This document shows positions 21,731 to 32,459 of a stretch of DNA of 32,689 bases, piece after piece. The translations under genes were made by a program, and so were the position numbers. Positions within the stretch are counted from its first letter, which is position 1. Each line of letters starts with the position of its first letter. Under the pieces are notes generated by a model. That model did not search any database. It was not told the DNA's origin and saw nothing but the letters and a program-made list of their open reading frames with translations. Location of the stretch: NCBI GenBank assembly GCA_003233235.1, contig QILF01000023.1, positions 1 through 32,689 of the forward strand, in the 5' to 3' direction. Source of the DNA: Zetaproteobacteria bacterium. Lineage in GTDB: Bacteria > Pseudomonadota > Zetaproteobacteria > Mariprofundales > Mariprofundaceae.

Positions 21731-21874
21731 GCTATAAACACACATGATTTTTTCTATTGCTGTGGTGCGGAGATTACCTCGCCTGTGTGTCAGAGATGTG
21801 ACTCAGCTCACCTTTGCGTATACTGATTTTAACGCTTGTTTTTTTACAGATTAGAAAATTACTTATACTTATAC

Positions 21875-22037
21875 AGAGCCACTTGCAAAAGTCTGGGTGG
21901 ATGAGTTGCAATTCCACTTCGAGTGCGATTTTGAGTTGGAATAAGGTGAATGGTGGTTCCATTTTCCGAGATTCCAACTCAAAAGCGCGCCGGAGTGGGG
22001 AAGTAAATCGCCGCTCACGACTTTTGCAAGTGGCTCT
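21875..22037. repeat. 163-bp MITE-like inverted-repeat element
   Basis: The ends AGAGCCACTTGCAAAAGTC (21875-21893) and GACTTTTGCAAGTGGCTCT (22019-22037) are perfect 19-bp inverted repeats. A second perfect pair lies inside: TTTTGAGTTGGAAT near 21930-21943 and ATTCCAACTCAAAA near 21971-21984. The whole element can fold into one long imperfect hairpin. It has no coding frame. The remainder of the 414-base gene-free stretch (21657-22070) holds only the prlC-proximal hairpin; I see nothing in 21731-21874. Confidence 0.85.
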
Positions 22038-22070
22038 ACAGTATGAGTTATTTCCGGTTTCATACTGCGA

Positions 22071-32277: not shown

Positions 32278-32289
32278 AATTTATTGGCA

Positions 32290-32311
32290 CGAGCCACTTG
32301 CAAGTGGCTCG
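32290..32311. repeat. Perfect 22-bp palindrome made of the MITE end sequence
   Basis: CGAGCCACTTG followed immediately by its complement. The first half repeats the GAGCCACTTGCAA start of the 163-bp element at 21875-22037 and the second half repeats its other end, so this looks like the two ends joined without the interior. It could also act as a terminator after the flavodoxin-like gene, although no T-run follows. The remainder of 32312-32459 shows no gene. Confidence 0.85.
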
Positions 32312-32459
32312 CACGACTGCTGATAAAAAACATCCGATTGCCTGCAATTCACATCTTGGTTCACAGCATTTCAGCCAGCACTTCCCTAACAAAAACCGCC
32401 TGAAAAACCAAAAAAAAGGAGATGAGGGTTCCCAGCATCAGCAATTCGGAGTAATCATA

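Follow-up and report, generated by a model that had tools for sequence, protein, structure and literature searches.

A MITE family of probable IS1182 type with a size ladder in a Zetaproteobacteria genome and a 20-bp palindrome that is probably one of its collapsed copies

In E. coli, where nearly precise excision of Tn10 and Tn5 has been studied with composite transposons, the hairpin-forming interior is deleted between short direct repeats near the ends and a short remnant stays behind. This process resembles the collapse that we propose here, from sequence only, for a MITE in a zetaproteobacterium. Among autonomous elements, the ISUnCu17 group of the IS1182 family (e.g., on the Aeromonas caviae plasmid pKAM643_2) has, like this MITE, GAGCCTCTTGCAAAA-type ends and a 4-bp target duplication; however, ISUnCu17 is a full autonomous IS of ~1.48 kb, while the MITE has only its ends and not its interior. 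QMITE1 and QMITE2 of Coxiella burnetii and Chunjie of Geobacter are bacterial MITEs of high copy number that vary widely in size (39–400 bp for QMITE1) and include inactive partial copies (PMC10969869). By their description in the available text of that review, they are like the present MITE in copy number and range of sizes, and that text mentions no 20-bp palindromic end product for them. A wide size range in a MITE family is already known; the new point here is that the 20-bp palindromic end state is given a specific structural explanation that can be tested.

The window, i.e. the whole stretch of DNA analyzed here, comprises 32,689 nucleotides and contains a 161-bp MITE that starts with GAGCCACTTGCAAAAGTC, a perfect 18-bp terminal inverted repeat (TIR), finishes with GACTTTTGCAAGTGGCTC, and has TACA on either side (Table 1). 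An earlier note on this DNA had described an element of 163 bp with perfect 19-bp ends; the MITE and the perfection of its ends hold, while both lengths were too wide because one base of the TACA duplication had been counted on each side. Folded as DNA, the element has a free energy of -54.1 kcal/mol (z = -11.8) and forms a single long imperfect hairpin spanning nearly all 161 bp; the inner perfect pair described before exists but is a portion of this hairpin. A search of the window against Rfam gave no match. The observation that the window holds no transposase matching the MITE ends was borne out, and a search of the whole assembly was likewise empty. The element has the short length, the perfect TIRs, and the lack of a transposase gene of a MITE.

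Table 1 Positions of the MITE, the palindrome, and their flanking and internal repeats in the window
Feature	Position	Strand
161-bp MITE, perfect 18-bp TIRs, near-complete hairpin	21876..22036	+
Left target-site duplication TACA of the window MITE	21872..21875	
Right target-site duplication TACA of the window MITE	22037..22040	
Outer TTGCAA at position 8 of the MITE; left repeat of the proposed deletion	21883..21888	
Outer TTGCAA at position 149 of the MITE; right repeat of the proposed deletion	22024..22029	
20-bp palindrome GAGCCACTTGCAAGTGGCTC, interpreted as a collapsed MITE	32291..32310	
GCAC target-site duplication left of the palindrome	32287..32290	
GCAC target-site duplication right of the palindrome	32311..32314	

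The window element is one of more than 100 tiny transposase-less transposons in the host genome. Specifically, the genome-wide search for the MITE end returned 205 exact GAGCCACTTGCAA ends in the 2.02-Mb assembly that holds the window (157 contigs, 96% complete) and 0 for the reversed control, documenting that the ends are not due to chance and that the element is far from lacking other copies. Within a sample of stretches totalling 1.36 Mb including the window, i.e. about two thirds of the assembly, pairing of ends with one mismatch allowed gave 55 elements and left 48 ends unpaired. Many of the unpaired ends sit at contig ends ~75–80 bp into the element, where the assembly broke, and the remaining ones are truncated, diverged, or chance one-mismatch matches. 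At four positions (L146:7543, L161:19166, L203:8840, and L205:10113) a solo MITE end of 15–16 bp is followed by unrelated sequence; no convincing partner was found within the available flank, and these solo ends are perhaps one-sided deletions.

Of the 54 testable elements, 44 lie between perfect 4-bp target duplications (shuffled flanks: mean 1.7, maximum 7), while 3-bp and 5-bp duplications were each found at one of the 54; the family therefore has the many copies with target duplications of a MITE. Orthologous empty or full sites for the two window loci were not found in the three congeners (G001–G003) despite alignable gene order, and because the intergenic DNA is too diverged, no orthologous insertion point could be placed. 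We therefore took empty-site evidence from within the genome, where five sampled MITE ends are inserted at TGAA in the end (AAGGAAGCTCTGAACAA...) of a second repeat. The uninterrupted copy of this repeat in L147 reads TTAAGGAAGCTCTGAACAACTCCGATTTG, and the filled copy in L179 reads TTAAGGAAGCTCTGAA, then the 161 bp of the MITE, then TGAACAACTCCGATTTG; comparison of the two shows that MITE insertion duplicates TGAA. Tandem MITE dimers, hinted at by 'gctctgaa' flanks, were rejected, as the MITEs concerned lie inside another repeat. The second repeat family has ends like TTAAGGAAGCNCTGAACAA and copies in L135, L140, L142, L144, L147, L179, and others; in the sample, its ends gave 29 uninterrupted matches, of which some are possibly due to chance.

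The earlier note had also asked for a full element with the same ends, and such an element was found in relatives and not in the host's own assembly. The genome G051 contains a full IS of 1458 bp (L089:1270–2727) with the ends GAGCCTCTTGCAAAACC and GAGCCACTTGCAAAAGTC, one of which is identical to the 18-bp TIR of the MITE, as expected if a MITE has its ends in common with an autonomous IS. This copy is without a clear 4-bp duplication; its 379-aa DDE transposase (Pfam DDE_Tnp_1) scores highest against the IS1182 model of NCBIfam, with 103.7 bits, which is under the 270-bit cut-off. Plasmid relatives of this transposase with 44–52% identity are annotated as IS1182 family, including ISUnCu17 (48.7% identity), and relatives across several phyla have GAG...TTGCAAAA ends, a motif compiled in this analysis and not from ISfinder. 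Perfect 4-bp duplications flank several of these relatives (TATG in L236, TACT in L239, ATCC in L244, AATG in L248, and ATTT in L249), and the examined copy of ISUnCu17, annotated as IS1182-like, has the ends GAGCCTCTTGCAAAAGGC and GAGCTTCTTGCAAAACTC with ATGA on either side, i.e. the combination of GAG..TTGCAAAA ends and a 4-bp duplication that marks the ISUnCu17 group. Full copies of this type of IS (~1.45 kb) occur in other genomes of the host family. The MITE and the IS have ~20 bp and the length of the target duplication in common and no interior. A related IS transposase, with GAGGTAATTGCAAAACTC ends, is matched 20 times in the Ghiorsea genome G032 (L105, L114, and L120), and TATG lies on either side of the copy in L114.

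An IS1182-like transposase was found neither in the host's own assembly (96% complete) nor in the three congeners, and it was either lost from the genome or is absent from the assembly. Matches to PF01609 in the host genome (IS5-type in C95, an IS4-type fragment in C16, C18, and a weak one in C10) were rejected as candidates, as none matches the IS1182-like query. The IS5-type transposase (L066:1–1200 in C95; NF033581, 333.9 bits) is cut by the contig start and has sequence similar to the second repeat family behind it, and the IS4-type gene fragment (L065:880–1334 in C16) abuts a MITE at a contig end. Because no matching transposase is present in the host or the three congeners, mobilization of the MITE in the host lineage is inferred; we suggest that an IS1182-family (ISUnCu17-group) DDE transposase mobilized it in trans, now or formerly, and that this putative enzyme would recognize GAGnnnCTTGCAAAA-type ends and make 4-bp target duplications.

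Most of the paired MITEs are intergenic (48 of 55), against a background in which a simple ORF caller places 86% of random positions inside ORFs; the 55 showed no marked bias toward convergent or divergent gene pairs, and nothing pointed to a host function. Repeats of the REP/REPIN type, which a RAYT (TnpA-REP) moves and which do not derive from an IS, would also be hairpins of high copy number that are mostly intergenic. However, the 4-bp target duplications, the perfect TIRs, and the IS1182-like partner with the same ends argue against such an origin, to which we assign hardly any probability. The 18-bp end is present in 9 of 74 genomes of the host family, the host included, and in none outside that family among 399 genomes sampled from the phylum; even a 13-bp end was not detected in the three congeners. 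A single match to the MITE end in a viral contig was judged a chance 18-mer, as no MITE surrounds it. Among the 17 full-length (161-bp) elements, three form a second subfamily with 84–86% identity to the main consensus and 84–93% identity to four of five compared elements from other genomes of the host family. Because longer DNA matches between the host and its congeners reach only ~68–76% identity, it is reasonable to suggest from these sequences that MITEs may have been transferred between genera.

The paired elements form a size ladder of 20, 43–45, 61–64, 88–89, 124–127, 145–161, and 165–185 bp, and most short elements carry perfect target duplications. Because the 89-bp form is present in six copies of very similar structure at different sites, the shortened forms probably moved after shortening. 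When the short elements were fitted one by one, as a prefix plus a suffix, to the 161-bp consensus, the deletion junctions fell at microhomologies of 0–6 bp, e.g. AAA and GAAA; because several variants have little or no microhomology, the ladder does not prove any one mechanism. The many copies, the duplications at both the long and the 20-bp state, the intermediate sizes between them, and the full IS with ends of the same kind in relatives support the suggestion that these are two states of one repeat family.

The palindrome near the flavodoxin-like gene is present as described earlier, with a core of 20 bp instead of 22 bp, the greater length being due to one flanking GCAC base counted on each side. 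A whole-assembly search with up to 3 mismatches gave exactly two exact copies, the one in the window and a second (C98:131–150) 6 bp from a MITE end, and each has its own perfect 4-bp duplication (GCAC and TACA, respectively). Among the 74 host-family genomes, the only other match with up to 2 mismatches is an imperfect one in G059. Because the window palindrome begins 13 bp past the stop codon of the flavodoxin-like gene and could form a hairpin, it could be read as an intrinsic terminator or regulatory site of this gene, unrelated to the MITE. Such a terminator would be a hairpin with a T run that is conserved at the gene; however, no T run follows the palindrome, and it is absent downstream of the gene in the three congeners, two of which have a different hairpin with a T run there, so that a terminator conserved in relatives free of the MITE, which would have spoken against a mobile origin, was not found. 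Together with the GCAC flanks and the identical copy elsewhere with a duplication of its own, these observations make a terminator very improbable.

Both palindromes match, without a mismatch, what the 161-bp consensus becomes when 141 bp are deleted between its TTGCAA copies at positions 8 and 149. Because this hexamer is self-complementary, it is a direct repeat inside inverted ends. We consider it likely that the family is an IS1182-type MITE and that the palindrome is a MITE that collapsed in place by a deletion between the TTGCAA copies. In this account, the MITE would have inserted normally at the palindrome site, giving the GCAC duplications; the hairpin would bring the two TTGCAA copies together; and replication slippage, or hairpin cleavage followed by microhomology repair, would retain one TTGCAA, so that 141 bp would be lost and GAGCCAC-TTGCAA-GTGGCTC would remain. 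The earlier suggestion that the ends were joined by precise deletion is supported as to the deletion, and the structure would place its end points at the TTGCAA direct repeats. Because there are only two 20-bp palindromes, the proposed slippage site rests on two cases. An IS circle junction was rejected as a source of the palindrome because it would join the outer and not the inner sides of the ends. We also considered that the palindrome was inserted as such, i.e. that the transposase moved a minimal element of two overlapping ends, given that both palindromes have perfect 4-bp target duplications and that some short forms, e.g. the six copies of the 89-bp class, look moved after shortening. 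However, the 20-bp form is rare (two copies), and with 13 bp kept per end and the TTGCAA common to both, it would leave little room for two transposase subunits; on these geometric grounds, we regard direct insertion as unlikely, and less likely than collapse in place.

We conclude that the family is most likely an IS1182-type (ISUnCu17-group) MITE with a size ladder, i.e. mobile DNA of an ordinary kind whose shrinkage has left an unusually clear record, and that a high-copy MITE family in a lineage of the Zetaproteobacteria is hereby documented together with its IS partner type. The proposed collapse of these copies suggests a structural rule, according to which a self-complementary hexamer in inverted ends predicts the palindromic scar of a MITE; other MITE and IS families whose ends include self-complementary words offer a test of this rule. 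Because the self-complementary hexamer in the ends acts as a direct repeat, we tentatively propose, as a possibility that we hold at less than even odds, that the hairpins of near-palindromic MITEs in this lineage drive their repeated pruning, with a fixed end product of 20 bp. If so, MITE families would leave recognizable short palindromic scars that are overlooked by genome annotation.
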